Positions 3,558-13,195 of a stretch of DNA of 13,374 nucleotides are shown here, in pieces. Origin of the DNA: Parcubacteria group bacterium SW_4_49_11 (GTDB lineage: Bacteria > Patescibacteriota > Minisyncoccia > SW-4-49-11); the NCBI GenBank assembly GCA_003021915.1, contig PXOY01000001.1, forward strand, positions 1 to 13,374, read 5' to 3'. Every line of letters starts with the position of its first letter. Position 1 is the stretch's first letter. A program made the translations under genes and the position numbers. Under the pieces are notes generated by a model that saw only the letters and a list, made by a program, of their open reading frames with translations, was not told where the DNA came from and did not search any database.

Positions 3558-3587
3558 CAACCAGATGCATTACTGTGTCCGCATACA

Positions 3588-3616
3588 TTGACAAAATTCG
3601 GGTTGTTTGATATCCT
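3588..3616 (+). promoter_or_regulatory. Sigma70-type promoter of the flippase-GT2-ligase cassette
   Basis: A perfect TTGACA (3588-3593) is followed after 17 nt by TATCCT (3611-3616). The predicted start is near 3623 and the flippase ATG lies about 21 nt downstream. This suggests the surface-glycan genes have their own promoter and do not depend on rpmH-rnpA-yidC read-through. Confidence 0.65.
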
Positions 3617-3643
3617 ACCTCCTTATCTCAACGCTATGTATTT

Positions 3644-5917: not shown

Positions 5918-7114
5918 ATGCGAGTGCTGTATGCTTTGCTTATATTCACTGTCCTCCTCGGGCAACTTGTCCAACTTCCGCTCTTAGGCGGTGTCCTCAC
6001 CGATCTGGTGGTTCCCCTCTATCTGGGAGGATGGGCTATTCACTCCGTTCTTACCAAACGTTCCCTCTACGTGACGTCTTCGATTATCCTTGGGGTGTTA
6101 TTTCTGTTGTACGCAGCGTTCTCTTTGTTGATCAACGTCGGAGAACTGCCGGTCGAGAGCGGTATGTTCGGTTCTCTCGCCTACTGGATACGGCTCGCGC
6201 TTTACTTGGGCTTGCTGTTTCCTTTTACGCAAATGATGTCCGAAGACCGGCAAGGCACCCTGCGCCTTTTTCTTGACACGCTCATTTACACCGCTCTGGT
6301 TCTCGCGTTTCTCGGGTTTCTGCAACTCATTTTCGTTCCAGACTTTTCGTTTATGGCCCAATACGGCTGGGATCCGCACCAAGGCCGCCTCCTCGCGACC
6401 TGGTTTGACCCCAACTTTCTGGGCGGTTTCTTAGGTATGGCCTTGCTTGCCGTTCTCAGTCGACTTCTCTTTCATTGGGATGCCGGTCCCCGAGCGCTTA
6501 TCTCCCTCTATAGCCTGCGATACCTCGGATTCGGAGCAATCTTAACTCTGGCGTTGGTTCTCACGTTTTCTCGGAGCGCGTTACTAGGATTTTTAGTGGG
6601 GATGACCATTCTGTTTCTTTTCAAATCGTGGCGCGCGTTTTTGTTGGCGATTGCGGTTGGTGCGCTGTTCTTTGTTTCTATCCCCCGCCTGCAAGAACGC
6701 GTGGAAGGTGCTCTCGACGTGGACGAAACCGCCAAACTCCGGCTCAAGTCCTGGAATCGAACGCTCACAGACATCGAACAGACGCCATGGATCGGCCAAG
6801 GATACAATACGCTCCGGTATCGCGCTGTCAATCCCGCCAGTCTCAACACCGCTTCCGGACGGGACAACAGCCTCTTAACCATGTGGTTGACCACCGGGTT
6901 GCCCGGCATGCTGCTGTTCTTGGGCGTATTCGCTCACAAATGGCTCCAGTTTGTTCTTATCTATTTCCGTCCGGACCAATATACAAAAGAAACGCGGAGC
7001 TTCGCATTAACGGGCCTCTCCATCATCGCCCTTATTATCGTACACTCGATGTTTGTACACAGTCTGGTGTACCCGCATATTTTGCCGTTCCTGCTGATGT
7101 TTTTAGCGTTTTAG
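5918..7114 (+). CDS. O-antigen ligase / polymerase-like membrane protein (Wzy_C/WaaL family)
   Basis: A 398-residue protein with about ten hydrophobic helices. It is predicted to join or polymerise lipid-linked glycans at the outer face of the membrane. Family marks are GRLLATWFDPNFLGG (156-170, the F.nPN region), LTFSRSALLGF (215-225), and after a long extracellular loop RLKSWNRTL (275-283) with TPWIGQGYNTLR (289-300). The region GRDNSLLTMWLTTGLPG (314-330) corresponds to the family's aHNxyL...GlpG box. In WaaL this box contains a conserved His, but here the residue is Asp316, so chemistry or substrate may differ. It is the third gene of the flippase-GT2 cassette, 6 nt after GT2. The C-terminus ends inside its last helix. 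Sequence alone does not separate ligase from polymerase or protein O-glycan ligase. Confidence 0.85.
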   Translation: MRVLYALLIFTVLLGQLVQLPLLGGVLTDLVVPLYLGGWAIHSVLTKRSLYVTSSIILGVLFLLYAAFSLLINVGELPVESGMFGSLAYWIRLALYLGLLFPFTQMMSEDRQGTLRLFLDTLIYTALVLAFLGFLQLIFVPDFSFMAQYGWDPHQGRLLATWFDPNFLGGFLGMALLAVLSRLLFHWDAGPRALISLYSLRYLGFGAILTLALVLTFSRSALLGFLVGMTILFLFKSWRAFLLAIAVGALFFVSIPRLQERVEGALDVDETAKLRLKSWNRTLTDIEQTPWIGQGYNTLRYRAVNPASLNTASGRDNSLLTMWLTTGLPGMLLFLGVFAHKWLQFVLIYFRPDQYTKETRSFALTGLSIIALIIVHSMFVHSLVYPHILPFLLMFLAF

Positions 7115-7115
7115 G

Positions 7116-7149
7116 AGAGAAGCCTGAATCCTGAAGCCGGAAGCCAGAG
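7116..7149 (+). repeat. Module A, copy 1: GAAGCCN heptamer array
   Basis: Four tandem 7-bp units run from 7119 to 7146: GAAGCCT, then GAATCCT, then two more GAAGCCN units. The whole 34-bp stretch is identical to 11500-11533 and 28 of 30 positions match 12892-12921. It starts 2 nt after the ligase stop codon. Each copy lies just after a stop codon on the plus strand. Confidence 0.85.
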
Positions 7150-7153
7150 GTTG

Positions 7154-7173
7154 TGATATACGATGGATATATA
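7154..7173 (+). repeat. Module B, copy 1: 20-bp AT-rich box
   Basis: The 20 bases TGATATACGATGGATATATA are identical to 12929-12948, and both follow module A by only a few bases. GATATAC recurs at 7187-7193 and 7198-7204, where ACCGT (7192-7196) and ACGGT (7203-7207) can form a small hairpin. TGATATAC also looks like an extended -10 element, but no -35 is in register, so promoter activity is only a possibility. Confidence 0.75.
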
Positions 7174-7210
7174 TGCCTGGCGGCGCGATATACCGTAGAT
7201 ATACGGTTGT

Positions 7211-7262
7211 GTTTTCCTCCTTTTAAGGAGGAAACACCCGTTAGGGAATGGAGGTTACCTTA
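7211..7262 (+). repeat. Module C, copy 1: double-hairpin repeat
   Basis: The first hairpin is a perfect 10-bp stem (7213-7222 with 7225-7234) with CCTCC on one arm and GGAGG on the other. The second is a short CCC-GTTA-GGG hairpin (7237-7246), followed by AATGGAGGTTACC. 51 of 52 positions match 13079-13130. An inverted copy lies at 11658-11705 and a diverged copy at 11590-11636. No long T-run follows the stem, so it is not a standard terminator. Confidence 0.85.
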
Positions 7263-7270
7263 GAAATCCG

Positions 7271-7309
7271 TAAAAAACACCATGTGTTTTCTATAGGTGT
7301 CCGTTGTAA
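7271..7309 (+). repeat. Module D, copy 1: A/T-rich hairpin repeat
   Basis: AAAACAC (7274-7280) pairs with GTGTTTT (7284-7290) around the loop CAT, followed at a short distance by GTCCGTTGTAA. It aligns with 13017-13053, where the stem sequence differs but a stem is kept and the tail CCGTTGTAA is the same. Here D follows C, while in the other copy D precedes C. Confidence 0.7.
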
Positions 7310-7358
7310 CTCGAGTTGTTAATAATTGACAAATAGTTATTCCTTCCGGCGGAAAGTC

Positions 7359-7387
7359 TTTTCAATGAGCCTAATATGACGTACAAT
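7359..7387 (+). promoter_or_regulatory. Candidate promoter of the mre operon, possibly giving a leaderless mreB mRNA
   Basis: TTTTCA (7359-7364) is followed after 17 nt by TACAAT (7382-7387). The start would fall at about 7394, next to the ATG at 7395. A perfect TTGACA at 7326-7331 has no -10 box at a usable distance. Confidence 0.45.
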
Positions 7388-7394
7388 ATAAATA

Positions 7395-8448
7395 ATGAAG
7401 CAGACAAAACGTACGCAACCATCCTGGGTAAAAGCCGTCATGCAAAAATTCGGTCAGGATATCGGGATCGACTTGGGAACAGCCAATACGTTGGTATACG
7501 TGCGTGATCGCGGTATTGTGATTAACGAACCCTCTGTAGTCGCGGTTAATACGAAAACGGGTCAAGTTCTCGCGATCGGGGACGAGGCGAAGGCGATGGT
7601 CGGTCGGACTCCTTCGCATATTGTGGCTTCTCGACCGCTTGTAAACGGTGTAGTTTCGGACTACGAAGTGACCGAACAGATGCTTCAGTATTTTATCCAT
7701 AAAGTAACGCGCGGAGGCCTGTTTCATCGGATGCGTTCGCGTGTGGTAGTGGGTATCCCGTCCGGTGTCACTGAGGTAGAGAAGCGGGCGGTGTATGACG
7801 CCACGAAAACAGCGGGCGTGCGGGCGGTATATCTGGTGGAAGAACCCGTCGCCGCGGCTATCGGATCTCGGTTGCCGATTCAGGAACCTACCGGTAATAT
7901 TGTCGTGGATATCGGCGGGGGAACAACCGAAATTGCGGTTATTTCGTTAGGGGGAATTGTCCTCTCCAAAAGTCTGCGCGTGGCCGGTGATCAACTCAGT
8001 CGGGATATTACCCGGTACATTCGCAATCAGTACAAGTTAGTCATCGGCGAGCGAACCGCGGACGAGGTGAAAATGACGATCGGATCCGCCAAACAGACGG
8101 ATCAAGGAGCGGAGATGATTATTCGAGATTATGGTCAACGACGAGGATATTCGTGCCGCGATTACCGCGTCCGTGATGACGATTGTCTATACGATCAAAG
8201 CCGCCGTGGAGGAAACACCTCCGGAATTGATCGGAGACATTATGGAACGAGGTATTATTTTGGCCGGAGGTGGCGCTCTTCTAAAAGGATTAGACGAGTT
8301 GGTCTCGGATGTTACGCAGGTGCCATGCCATATCAGTGACGATCCCCTGACAGCGGTTGTGCGTGGAGGCGGATTGGTTCTCCAACAGTTAGACAGTTTG
8401 CAAGAAATTCTGGTTCCCCTGGATGTGGGCGAGCGGCCGAAGATGTAA
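7395..8448 (+). pseudogene. mreB: Rod shape-determining protein MreB, frameshifted by a small internal deletion
   Basis: MreB is the bacterial actin that positions sidewall peptidoglycan synthesis. Frame 1 (from 7395) encodes residues 1 to about 245: phosphate 1 motif DIGIDLGTANTLVYV (22-36), then PSGVTEVEKRAVYDA, VEEPVAAAIG, phosphate 2 motif VVDIGGGTTEIAVISLGG and GERTADEVKMTIGSAKQTDQ. It then shifts to the +1 frame near 8125-8131, which continues VNDEDIRAAITASV, ETPPELIGDIMERGIILAGG (adenosine motif) and DPLTAVVRGGG to a TAA at 8446-8448. The loop that reads GRDLxxGLPKT in other MreBs is missing at the junction. The lost length must be 2 (mod 3), most simply about 32 nt. Without frame repair, frame 1 ends at 8339 with foreign residues. 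The N-terminal extension WVKAVMQKF could be an amphipathic membrane helix; an alternative ATG is at 7440. mreC, mreD and mrdA are intact, so a real null is surprising and an assembly or clonal defect is possible. Confidence 0.9.
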
Positions 8449-11495: not shown

Positions 11496-11499
11496 GAAA

Positions 11500-11533
11500 A
11501 GAGAAGCCTGAATCCTGAAGCCGGAAGCCAGAG
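11500..11533 (+). repeat. Module A, copy 2: GAAGCCN heptamer array
   Basis: These 34 bases are identical to 7116-7149, with four 7-bp units from 11503 to 11530. The module lies 4 nt after the PBP2 stop. A second heptamer array with a different unit follows at once. Confidence 0.85.
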
Positions 11534-11540
11534 AATTGCA

Positions 11541-11568
11541 GTAGCAAGTAGCTCGTAGCAGGTAGCAA
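11541..11568 (+). repeat. Heptanucleotide array, unit GTAGCNN
   Basis: Four tandem 7-bp units, all starting GTAGC (GTAGCAA first and last). The unit is the one seen on the minus strand at 500-576. Seven nt separate its first base from module A, and the two arrays are out of phase by 3 nt. Confidence 0.75.
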
Positions 11569-11589
11569 GTGCTTGGAGATAAGATGTGT

Positions 11590-11636
11590 CTTCCTCTTTT
11601 TAAAGAGGAAGGGCCCCGAAGGGGGATGGAGTTCTC
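11590..11636 (+). repeat. Module C-prime: diverged double-hairpin repeat
   Basis: A perfect 10-bp stem (11590-11599 with 11602-11611) is followed by a CCCC-GAA-GGGG hairpin (11614-11624) and GATGGAGTT. The layout is that of module C, but the stem pair C-G is replaced by T-A (CCTCTTT with AAAGAGG) and the second stem is also changed on both arms. It faces the inverted module C at 11658-11705. The reverse complement of 11586-11601 recurs at 13058-13073. Confidence 0.75.
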
Positions 11637-11657
11637 GTCAGAAGCAGTGTTTAACGA

Positions 11658-11705
11658 AACCTCCATTCCCTAACGGGTATTTCCTCCTTTAAAAAGGAGG
11701 AAAAC
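11658..11705 (-). repeat. Module C, copy 2, inverted
   Basis: Read on the minus strand this matches 7211-7256. The differences are one substitution and the insertion of one T and one A at mirrored places, which lengthens the stem without breaking it. With module C-prime it makes a head-to-head pair of about 116 bp, like the paired REP units (BIMEs) of enterobacteria in layout. Confidence 0.8.
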
Positions 11706-11744
11706 AGAAGGTTTTTAAGTGCCCCGTAGATAAATCGAAATTTA

Positions 11745-11753
11745 TGATATACT
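11745..11753 (+). promoter_or_regulatory. Extended -10 promoter of the GT4 gene
   Basis: TG at 11745-11746 is followed by one base and TATACT (11748-11753), a good extended -10. The -35 position is poor (CGTAGA at 11725-11730). The predicted start near 11760 leaves a leader of about 27 nt to the ATG at 11787. Confidence 0.5.
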
Positions 11754-11786
11754 ACACATAAGATGATCGTACAATATCCATAAGCT

Positions 11787-12871
11787 ATGCGCATCGGCAT
11801 TGACATCAGAAGTATCGGCAAACGGGGGACAGGGGATGAAGTGTACACCACCCAACTGATTCGCAATCTGGCTCGGAGTGGAGAAGAGCACATGTTTGTT
11901 CTCTTCACCGACGATGAAGAGATCCCCACCTACGAGCTTATCCAGCATCTTCCCGCGAACATGCAGGTCGTGGTTATTCCTCCCGCACACCGCGCAGTTT
12001 GGATGTTTGTCCGCCTTCCGCGCTACGCCCGAGCATACAATCTCGATCTGTTACATGTGCAGTACATTACGCCGCTCTACATCCGAGACATGACCCTGAT
12101 TACCACCATTCATGATGTTTCGTGGAAAGTATTACCGGCCTCCGTACCGTTCAAGGACCGTCTTTTGCTGAATATGTGTATGCCGAAGAGTGTGCGAAGC
12201 GCCGATCATGTGCTTACCGTATCTCATCATTCCAAGGAACAAATCGAGCGTTTGTATCCCGCTTCCCATGGCAAGGTGACGACTATCTACAATGGCGGCT
12301 ACATTGATCCCGCTGACCGATCCTTAGCGGCCGATATCGATCCAGTCTCCAACCGCGCAAAAACGTACCTCAGTTATTGCGGGCGTACGCGTCGTTCTTA
12401 AGCCGATTTGAAAATCCAAACAACGCCCCGCTCTGCGTAATCGCCGGTGGAGAAGGTGTCAATTACGACACAGAGATTGATACCGTCATCATACAAGAGA
12501 ATCTCTCTGACTATGTCCTCAAAACCGGCCATGTCTCGGAAGCGGAAAAGTATCGGTTATATGCTCACGCCGAACTCTTCGTCTCTTTGTCTCTGTTTGA
12601 AGGATTCGGCATTCCGTTTGTGGAGGCCATGAGTTTTGGCATCCCGGTACTCGGTTCCAATCGGTCCTGTCTCCCTGAGATTATCGGTGAGGCGGGCGAC
12701 ATTGTTGATCCCGAAGATACGGAGGCAGTAGCCAACAAGCTTTTCTGGTTTTGTACTGATTCGAAACTCCATAATCAATACGCATGCCAGGGGATGGAGC
12801 GCGCTCAAAAATTTACGTGGGAGCGAATGGCCCAAGAAACACAGGCAGTATATGAGGAATTTGATAGTTAG
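11787..12871 (+). pseudogene. Family 4 (GT-B) glycosyltransferase, frameshifted by a small internal deletion
   Basis: The product would be a GT-B sugar transferase acting on surface glycans. Frame 1 gives the N-terminal domain: MRIGIDIRSIGKRGTGDEVY, LLHVQYITPLYI (88-99), TTIHDVSWKVLP (106-117), SADHVLTVSHHSKEQIERLY (138-157) and TIYNGGYIDP, to about Asn189. The donor-binding domain is in another frame from 12353: PRKNVPQLLRAYASFLSRF, VLKTGHVSEAEKYRLYAHAE, LFEGFGIPFVEAMSFGIPVL (the E(x7)E motif) and LPEIIGEAGDIVDP, ending at TAG 12869-12871. The segment YLLYVGxxx that should precede PRKN is missing; the lost length is 1 (mod 3), by family spacing about 40 nt. Unrepaired, frame 1 stops at 12401 and the protein lacks its donor-binding half. 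It stands alone between two repeat cassettes and has its own promoter candidate. Donor is unknown. Confidence 0.88.
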
Positions 12872-12891
12872 AATATAGAATTTTGTAAAAC

Positions 12892-12921
12892 AGAAGCCGG
12901 AATCCCGAAGCCGGAAGCCAG
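12892..12921 (+). repeat. Module A, copy 3: GAAGCCN heptamer array
   Basis: Four 7-bp units (12893-12920), with 28 of 30 positions matching copies 1 and 2. Both changes turn T to G or C at unit ends or in the second unit. It lies 20 nt after the glycosyltransferase stop. Confidence 0.8.
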
Positions 12922-12928
12922 CAAAATT

Positions 12929-12948
12929 TGATATACGATGGATATATA
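12929..12948 (+). repeat. Module B, copy 2
   Basis: Identical over 20 nt to 7154-7173 and again placed directly after module A. GCTTTC (12999-13004) and GAAAGC (13009-13014) further on form a 6-bp stem with a GTAA loop that has no counterpart in the first cassette. Confidence 0.75.
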
Positions 12949-13016
12949 GTTGTTCAACGCCAAAAAGAAAGTAGCTAACGGCAGTCCTCTGAAAATAGGC
13001 TTTCGTAAGAAAGCAG

Positions 13017-13053
13017 TAAAAAACACCACATGTTTTTTAAGTGACCGTTGTAA
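13017..13053 (+). repeat. Module D, copy 2: A/T-rich hairpin
   Basis: AAAAAACA (13018-13025) pairs with TGTTTTTT (13031-13038), and the tail GTGACCGTTGTAA matches copy 1 except near its start. The stem register differs from copy 1 (7271-7309) but base pairing is kept. It precedes module C here. Confidence 0.65.
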
Positions 13054-13057
13054 TTTG

Positions 13058-13073
13058 AAAAAGAGGAAGACAC
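13058..13073 (-). repeat. Half of module C-prime, inverted
   Basis: These 16 bases are the exact reverse complement of 11586-11601, one arm of the C-prime hairpin and its flank. The other arm is absent. It sits between module D and module C and looks like a remnant from recombination between modules. Confidence 0.55.
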
Positions 13074-13078
13074 AACCT

Positions 13079-13130
13079 GTTTTCCTCCTTTCAAGGAGGA
13101 AACACCCGTTAGGGAATGGAGGTTACCTTA
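13079..13130 (+). repeat. Module C, copy 3
   Basis: 51 of 52 positions match 7211-7262. The single change is in the hairpin centre (TTTC for TTTT). It is the last module of the third cassette. After it, about 65 bp up to the permease stop contain only an imperfect inverted repeat. Confidence 0.85.
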
Positions 13131-13165
13131 TTATACAACATTTTGATAGGTAATAAAGGATTTTT

Positions 13166-13193
13166 GAGATAGAGCTTTAGAGAGCGTTATCTC
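13166..13193. other. Imperfect inverted repeat between convergent genes
   Basis: GAGATA (13166-13171) pairs with TATCTC (13188-13193), with GCT/AGC pairing inside. It lies 2 nt beyond the permease stop, where a terminator would be expected. No T-run follows on the minus strand (AAAAATCC instead), so terminator function is doubtful. Confidence 0.35.
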
Positions 13194-13195
13194 CG

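Follow-up and report, generated by a model that had tools for sequence, protein, structure and literature searches.

Intergenic mosaic repeat cassettes in a patescibacterial genome and a possible family of folded elements at tRNA 3' ends

The analysed window is one whole contig (C1) of the draft genome of Parcubacteria group bacterium SW_4_49_11 (G000), with a length of 13,374 nucleotides. The draft contains 494,541 bases in 53 contigs, and is 73.9% complete. Genes were called mechanically, and the intergenic placement of the modules described here is based on these calls. Three gaps between genes (7115-7394, 11496-11786, and 12872-13195) had been described as mosaics of repeated modules; the copies within the window and their recurrence across the genome confirm this. 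Module A of that preliminary description is termed H1 here (GAAGCCN units), the GTAGCNN array is termed H2, B is termed P, and C-prime is termed c; the names C and D were retained. Two further modules were named: H3 (TAGTATT-like units), which was unlisted before, and the MITE-like element E.

In the first gap, all modules are on the plus strand. An H1 array of 7-bp GAAGCCN units at 7116-7149 directly follows the stop codon at 7112-7114, and has copies throughout the genome. It is followed by P at 7154-7211, in which 11-bp GATATACRGTN units flank a short hairpin, by C at 7207-7262 (a CCTCC...GGAGG hairpin and then CCCGTTAGGG; 45 matches in the sequence searched), and by D at 7264-7314. The stem of the P hairpin at 7166 is imperfect here, and it is one of the few P hairpins without a full 5-bp stem. 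The order A-B-C-D read earlier holds over 7116-7314, but the D there is only the 3' part (second hairpin and tail), with a weak match to the D model (24.5 bits, E 0.007). The second gap contains an H1 array at 11500-11533, a 7-bp GTAGCNN array (H2) at 11541-11569, and c with two hairpins at 11584-11640, all on the plus strand; C is inverted at 11652-11709 (minus strand), and a 3' tail fragment of D lies at 11710-11738 (plus strand). The earlier order (A, GTAGCNN array, C-prime, and inverted C) is thus extended by the D tail, over 11500-11738. The third gap carries an H1 array at 12890-12923, a truncated P without hairpin at 12929-12950, a full copy of D with two covarying hairpins at 12951-13058 (model match 88.7 bits), an inverted half copy of c at 13055-13074, C at 13075-13130, and one end of E, with the MITE-like inverted end ...TTTTTGAGATAGAGCTTTA, at 13131-13180. 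The half c and E are on the minus strand, and the others are on the plus strand. The order A-B-D-(half C-prime)-C was found as described over 12890-13130, with a short B.

The copies in the three gaps are closely similar. The 34-nt H1 copies at 7116 and 11500 are identical, and the copy at 12890 is 85% identical to the former. C at 7210 and C at 13078 share 98% identity over 53 nt, and the inverted C at 11652 is 90% complementary over 42 nt. The P copies have 20 of 20 nt in common, and the D copies share 79% identity over 39 nt. A fourth array-bearing gap was found at 472-585, with an H3 array of 7-bp TAGTATT-type units at 516-543 and a GTAGCNN array (H2) at 549-576, both on the minus strand; the latter is 9 nt from the end of a minus-strand gene at 586. 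Two promoter gaps had been considered free of modules. This is correct for 3558-3643; 2140-2272 has two isolated motif matches. Two genes of the window are split. The mreB gene is divided over two overlapping frames (7395-8448), whose pieces correspond to positions 2-223 and 237-326 of MreB_Mbl; this may be a sequencing error or a broken gene. A glycosyltransferase is divided over two frames at 11787-12871, with a Glyco_transf_4 part and a Glycos_transf_1 part.

The modules were scanned across the genome and in relatives, and are present beyond the window, including in the sister species G001. A BLAST search with the first gap as query found at least 62 places in its own genome at E<=0.001, query included, and at least 90 at E<=10; these counts are lower bounds, because 40 of the 70 first-look candidates were scored. 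Three consecutive GTAGCNN units have 64 matches in the 494,541 bases, and the reversed control has none. A chance origin of the repeated modules in the gaps is ruled out. Among 36 genomes (the own genome and 35 relatives), the first-gap cassette was matched only in G000 and G001; GTAGCNN arrays were found in four, with 64 matches in G000, 25 in G001, 2 in G024, and 5 in G031. Exact matches to the C pattern among genome contigs were found only in JAHEOE01, a metagenome-assembled genome of Candidatus Paceibacterota, in a collection from which the window's own genome is possibly absent. Viral contigs gave 0 exact matches to the C pattern, and a phage origin was rejected on this ground.

In the sampled DNA, 39 module clusters make up 6.9% of 173,773 bases in G000, and 42 clusters make up 7.5% of 196,009 bases in G001. 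Both densities are upper estimates, because the stretches apart from the window were chosen for carrying matches. Tandem periods that are multiples of 7 occur in 53 of 82 arrays in G000 and in 44 of 76 in G001, from stretches selected for modules. The comparison set, drawn from 20 other genomes and including two stretches (L171 and L172) selected for GTAGC arrays, has 7 of 80. Common 7-bp and 11-bp arrays with such a period bias would be expected if replication slippage grew the arrays locally and recombination homogenised them, without any transposition. Such a local origin is improbable, since unlinked arrays share unit variants and, by eye, their starts and ends, and since the cores C and D are not products of tandem arrays. 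An assembly or binning artefact might also be considered for a 53-contig draft in which GTAGC arrays lie within 100 bases of several contig starts. The separate assembly of G001, however, has the same modules, with different copies at orthologous sites, which makes an artefact scarcely credible.

Module order is varied, yet apparently constrained. The 81 clusters with at least three module matches each show 77 canonical orders in 370 kb of the two species, sampled for module content, so that no one fixed order exists. Same-strand neighbours among the arm modules (the 7-bp arrays H1, H2, and H3, and the 11-bp/hairpin array P) favour the cycle P-H2-H3-H1-P, with 92 single steps, 47 skips, and 25 reverse steps, although this cycle was picked after inspecting the adjacency list. 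The bias could alternatively arise from arms that spread as longer units and then decayed. The arm modules face inward from both gene ends, with 148 convergent vs 6 divergent pairs; of the 26 two-sided clusters, 23 have a strict plus-then-minus polarity. In one-sided clusters, D points the same way as the arms in 35 of 41 cases. The ends of modules, as read by eye, recur between copies. That the inward polarity arose from heptamers added to broken ends in a telomerase-like manner was also considered, and was rejected as no enzyme supports it.

The hairpins of P have near-constant flanks around many different stems. After exclusion of 52 of 149 pattern matches (wrong length or tandem-unit type), the full 5-bp stem was found in 62 of 69 P hairpins in G000 and in 19 of 28 in G001. 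When each distinct sequence is counted once, the full stem is present in 32 of 39 and 13 of 22, with shuffle means of 10.7 and 2.4, respectively. In an alignment of 61 P sequences, one per distinct spacer and genome, 94.7% of the cells are paired vs 68.8% in shuffles, 74 cells are changed on both sides vs 17.2, and slid partners are at most 51.1% paired. The D alignment consists of 51 of 80 BLAST hits, after removal of 26 that did not fit the boundary pattern and, by hand, of 3 that were over-long or truncated. Its two hairpins have 98.0% of cells paired vs 77.1% in shuffles and 142 doubly changed cells vs 41.4, and slid partners are at most 61.3% paired. The number of pairs with a double change is not in excess of shuffles for P (347 of 500 shuffles reach the value), and is weakly above them for D (44 of 500); further pair types of D are not in excess (352 of 500). 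Pairing in the P and D hairpins is maintained through many sequence changes. The keeper of this pairing may be RNA, single-stranded DNA, or a copying process. The covariation could equally reflect a selected function or a mutational process, of which quasipalindrome correction is an example. In 619 kb, the D model matches 39 places in G000 and 38 in G001 (77 in all, with most of its own seeds among them), and none in 20 stretches from other genomes. A scan of the window and 8 further loci with the Rfam 15 covariance models identified tRNA genes and otherwise only matches below the gathering score; a known structured RNA family was rejected, as none of these matches was relevant.

D copies were also found at the ends of tRNA genes. 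In the genus sample, 5 of 25 tRNA genes (Ile, Gly, Gly, Trp, and Thr) have a D copy that ends at -2 to +1 nt from their 3' end. A sixth flush copy, at +2 of a tRNA-Arg, is in L004, which has one further tRNA and was inspected because a tRNA had been seen there; 6 of 27 tRNAs are thus flush with D (-2 to +2 nt). For the 25 tRNA genes of the sample, 0.01 flush copies would be expected at random, and 0.14 with D restricted to 7% of the DNA. All six copies are antisense to the tRNA. None of the six has a duplication of the tRNA on its far side, and such a duplication beside the genus copies was rejected.

The placement of the cassettes relative to genes was compared in 65 of the 81 clusters, which have called genes on both sides; the 16 at contig edges were excluded. 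Arms start at a median of 9 nt after stop codons in G000 (n=22) and 13.5 nt in G001 (n=26). From called start codons, the medians are 67 nt in G000 (n=15) and 83 nt in G001 (n=19); the distances scatter in both directions. These short distances behind many stop codons, the hairpins that remain paired, and the D copies flush with some tRNA 3' ends are features of functional RNA parts, such as terminators, 3'-end stabilisers, or tRNA trailers, that would be under selection at each site. We regard this explanation as rather unlikely. In 37 orthologous gene pairs, some of which are affected by split or uncalled genes, cassettes were read in both species at 3, with different content and order in all 3. 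Cassettes were read solely in G001 at 6 of the 37 gaps, with lengths of 34 vs 209, 40 vs 736, 122 vs 321, 160 vs 474, none vs 256, and 68 vs 380 bases, and at none solely in G000; this bias is uninformative on direction, because the G001 contigs were picked for holding modules. Orthologous gaps without cassettes or with other modules argue against selection per site, as does a polarity that tracks the cassette and not the gene. Moreover, 34 of 82 arm ends lie beside start codons. A translational safety device, with stop arrays in all frames (TAG every 7 nt), was set aside for this last reason.

The D model was also run over 285 genomes of the class Paceibacteria. Among the best candidates per genome (up to 15, with strict filters), strong matches occur only in the genus. 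Weak matches outside it (E 3e-6 to 8e-4) were found in G056, G103, and G168, and provide pattern-free support for relatives. A D core pattern derived from reading these matches was found in 17 of 383 class genomes. Of its matches, 11 are in G000, none is in G001, and 44 are spread over 16 extra-genus genomes; the reversed pattern, as a control, matches once. The pattern is strict, since G001 has D copies yet no match. Outside the class, the pattern was found in 0 of 347 genomes (second draw of 379). A model from 7 extra-genus elements matches the genus sample in 19 places at E<=0.01, the best with E 3e-7, and 20 other stretches gave no match up to E 1. The model misses the window's own D, and most genus copies are weak or missed. 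These later model matches are not independent of the core pattern, because the class-wide elements were picked with it. In the class, 16 other genomes thus carry probable relatives of D.

In the extra-genus D-like elements, a third stem is arranged in two ways: it forms a hairpin left of the core in 18, its two arms enclose the core in 7, and 2 of the 27 are untyped. In the predicted fold, the two arrangements are circular permutations of a three-way junction. Hammerhead types I-III are likewise naturally circularly permuted RNAs, with a three-way junction in which different strands are opened. However, the conserved junction strands of the D-like elements are unlike those of hammerheads, and the Rfam scan gave no relevant match. 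D-like matches lie within 250 bases of a tRNA gene in 17 of 29 distinct cases, against 2.5% of positions in 219,447 bases of relatives' stretches unselected for matches. Among the 26 class-wide elements with flanks long enough, 16 have direct repeats of score >=16, compared with 4 of 151 mismatched flank pairs. The direct repeats are up to 70 bp, and several are copies of tRNA 3' ends; one of 61 bp, in L204, consists of tandem units and is not a target.

Y1 transposases and reverse transcriptases were searched in the 36 genomes. The preliminary description had suggested looking for a RAYT-like or other Y1/HUH transposase encoded near a cassette. G000 and G001, which are 74% and 88% complete, have a single Y1_Tnp match each, in short open frames (157 and 148 aa), and neither has a RAYT-sized Y1 transposase; this absence is not final, because both genomes are incomplete. 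The Y1 of G000 is a 151-aa IS200-type protein, and, apart from one 10-mer in the first gap, its flanks and the modules tested have no 9-mer in common. The single Y1 match of G001 differs from that of G000, and is on a 3.4-kb contig (L094, G001:C54) that is possibly a contaminant. Y1 transposases are present in 19 of the 36 genomes. RAYT-sized matches were found in other genera, all without a cassette match, and among them G031 has GTAGCTT arrays. At 18 Y1 loci of other genera (2-3.4 kb per locus; mostly RAYT-sized), there is no D-like core and no four-unit heptamer array. RVT_1 was found in 6 of the 36 genomes, and in neither of the incomplete genomes of the genus, on which ground retrotransposition, by a group II intron or another retroelement, was rejected. 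G008, G028, and G032 have D-like elements, but no Y1 match and no reverse transcriptase match. A Y1/RAYT enzyme or a reverse transcriptase is therefore unlikely to move D.

The gaps had been interpreted as bacterial interspersed mosaic elements (BIMEs), as opposed to single transposon copies. The mosaic part of this interpretation stands: the modules are in high copy number, intergenic by the mechanical gene calls, variable in order, and spread across the genome and the sister species. Palindromes in extragenic mosaics, often downstream of coding regions, are also described for REP/BIME (PMC3733652, PMC2817692). In the strict sense, BIMEs are REP palindromes spread by a RAYT (Y1 HUH) transposase. 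Small palindromes just after stop codons, the many genomes with a Y1 transposase, and the combination of RAYT-sized matches and GTAGCTT arrays in G031 would fit this origin. RAYT-driven BIMEs were rejected as very improbable, as no RAYT-sized Y1 was found in the incomplete genomes of the genus, the 18 Y1 loci of other genera are without a D-like core or a four-unit heptamer array, and some genomes carry D-like elements without a Y1 match. In addition, the arms are convergent, whereas REP orientation alternates, and arms of 7-bp and 11-bp arrays are absent from the BIME description consulted. By eye, no GTAG or CGTC tag was seen at the foot of a 20-40 bp palindrome: the P hairpin is flanked by GATATAT and GATATA, and the D hairpin by AATAGG and AGTG. 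GTAG is present in the H2 arrays, which are not hairpins. The gaps might thus be called BIMEs by analogy only.

Cyanobacterial STRR sequences are intergenic 7-bp direct repeats in short arrays. Similar heptamer repeats are TAACTGA in Beggiatoaceae and GGGNATC in Xanthomonas and Nostoc (PMC4679880, PMC4692102). The arrays reported here resemble all of these, but the units differ, GTAGCNN has two free positions, and here they form the inward-pointing arms of larger cassettes. Closer analogies than BIMEs are neisserial intergenic mosaic elements (NIMEs) and pneumococcal BOX elements. NIMEs consist of RS units of 50-150 bp between 20-bp dRS3 inverted repeats (PMC9778887). NIMEs and the cassettes here are both intergenic composites of short repeats, with dozens to hundreds per genome; the arms here, however, are 7-bp and 11-bp arrays with variable hairpins. 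GGGAAT of dRS3 (ATTCCC(N)8GGGAAT) is found in C, perhaps by coincidence. BOX elements are described as boxA-boxB(n)-boxC (PMC3049150). They are also modular, with one module in variable tandem number between others and a predicted fold if transcribed; the cassettes here have 77 orders among 81 clusters. Elements of such kind in this bacterial group were not recognised among the top results of group-named queries of the open-licence literature.

The MITE-like element E has inverted ends ATCTCAAAA / TTTTGAGAT and, by reading, a flanking TA. It is about 170 bp long, and is very alike by eye in three gaps of G001 (L123 4271-4826, L124 14326-14799, and L121 2126-2505), with a flanking TA in two of them. 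E looks recently active in G001. An IS630-type mover was rejected for E, as no IS630-type DDE_3 transposase was found in either of the two incomplete genus genomes.

We consider it rather likely that small non-autonomous mobile modules of several kinds accumulated in layers in the gaps, where their remains are now found. Instead of textbook repeats of the E. coli type, the gaps resemble a graveyard of small mobile elements. In the proposed arrangement, the arms would enter from the gene ends with a single polarity, and would enclose the structured cores (C/c and D) and E. The modules would move in trans by copying or insertion, and new copies would land in or beside old ones and then decay. 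Selection might merely keep the modules out of genes and promoters. The inward arms may come from orientation-specific insertion next to an existing module, which is a guess. We infer the mobility of the modules; no genus cassette showed a transposition event with a clean empty site and a target duplication. In any case, the inward polarity rule strongly constrains any mechanism.

D is probably a member of a larger family whose targets are the 3' ends of tRNA genes and of transcripts. As a tentative proposal, somewhat speculative in its details, D could be a branch of an undescribed family of folded mobile elements of about 100 nt, so far found in this class only. Its members would share a three-way junction in two circular permutations, use tRNA 3' ends and other ends of transcripts as insertion sites, duplicate a target of 17-70 bp outside the genus, and move without RAYT or reverse transcriptase. 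The predicted junction may act as a catalyst, in an RNA that cleaves or ligates itself, or may be a single-stranded DNA substrate of some recombinase. As a candidate for a new kind of structured mobile element at tRNA ends, the D family is concrete and can be tested.

The small genomes of patescibacteria are usually described as streamlined. Despite the small genome, about 7% of the sampled DNA (an upper estimate) consists of repeat cassettes. Should the modules be mobile, they would be parasites that live as a layered population in a near-minimal genome.

Several further loci may be noted. A long similar non-coding stretch without modules is found in both species (L073 3761-4089 and L121 1234-1660), and ARAGORN called no tRNA or tmRNA in the L073 stretch. 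In L204 (G008:C2), D-like units repeat 163 bases apart, each then followed by a sequence like a tRNA 3' end. One contig of G001 carries two blocks of tRNA-Pro and a D-like element, about 860 bases apart (L120 97-347 and 963-1208).
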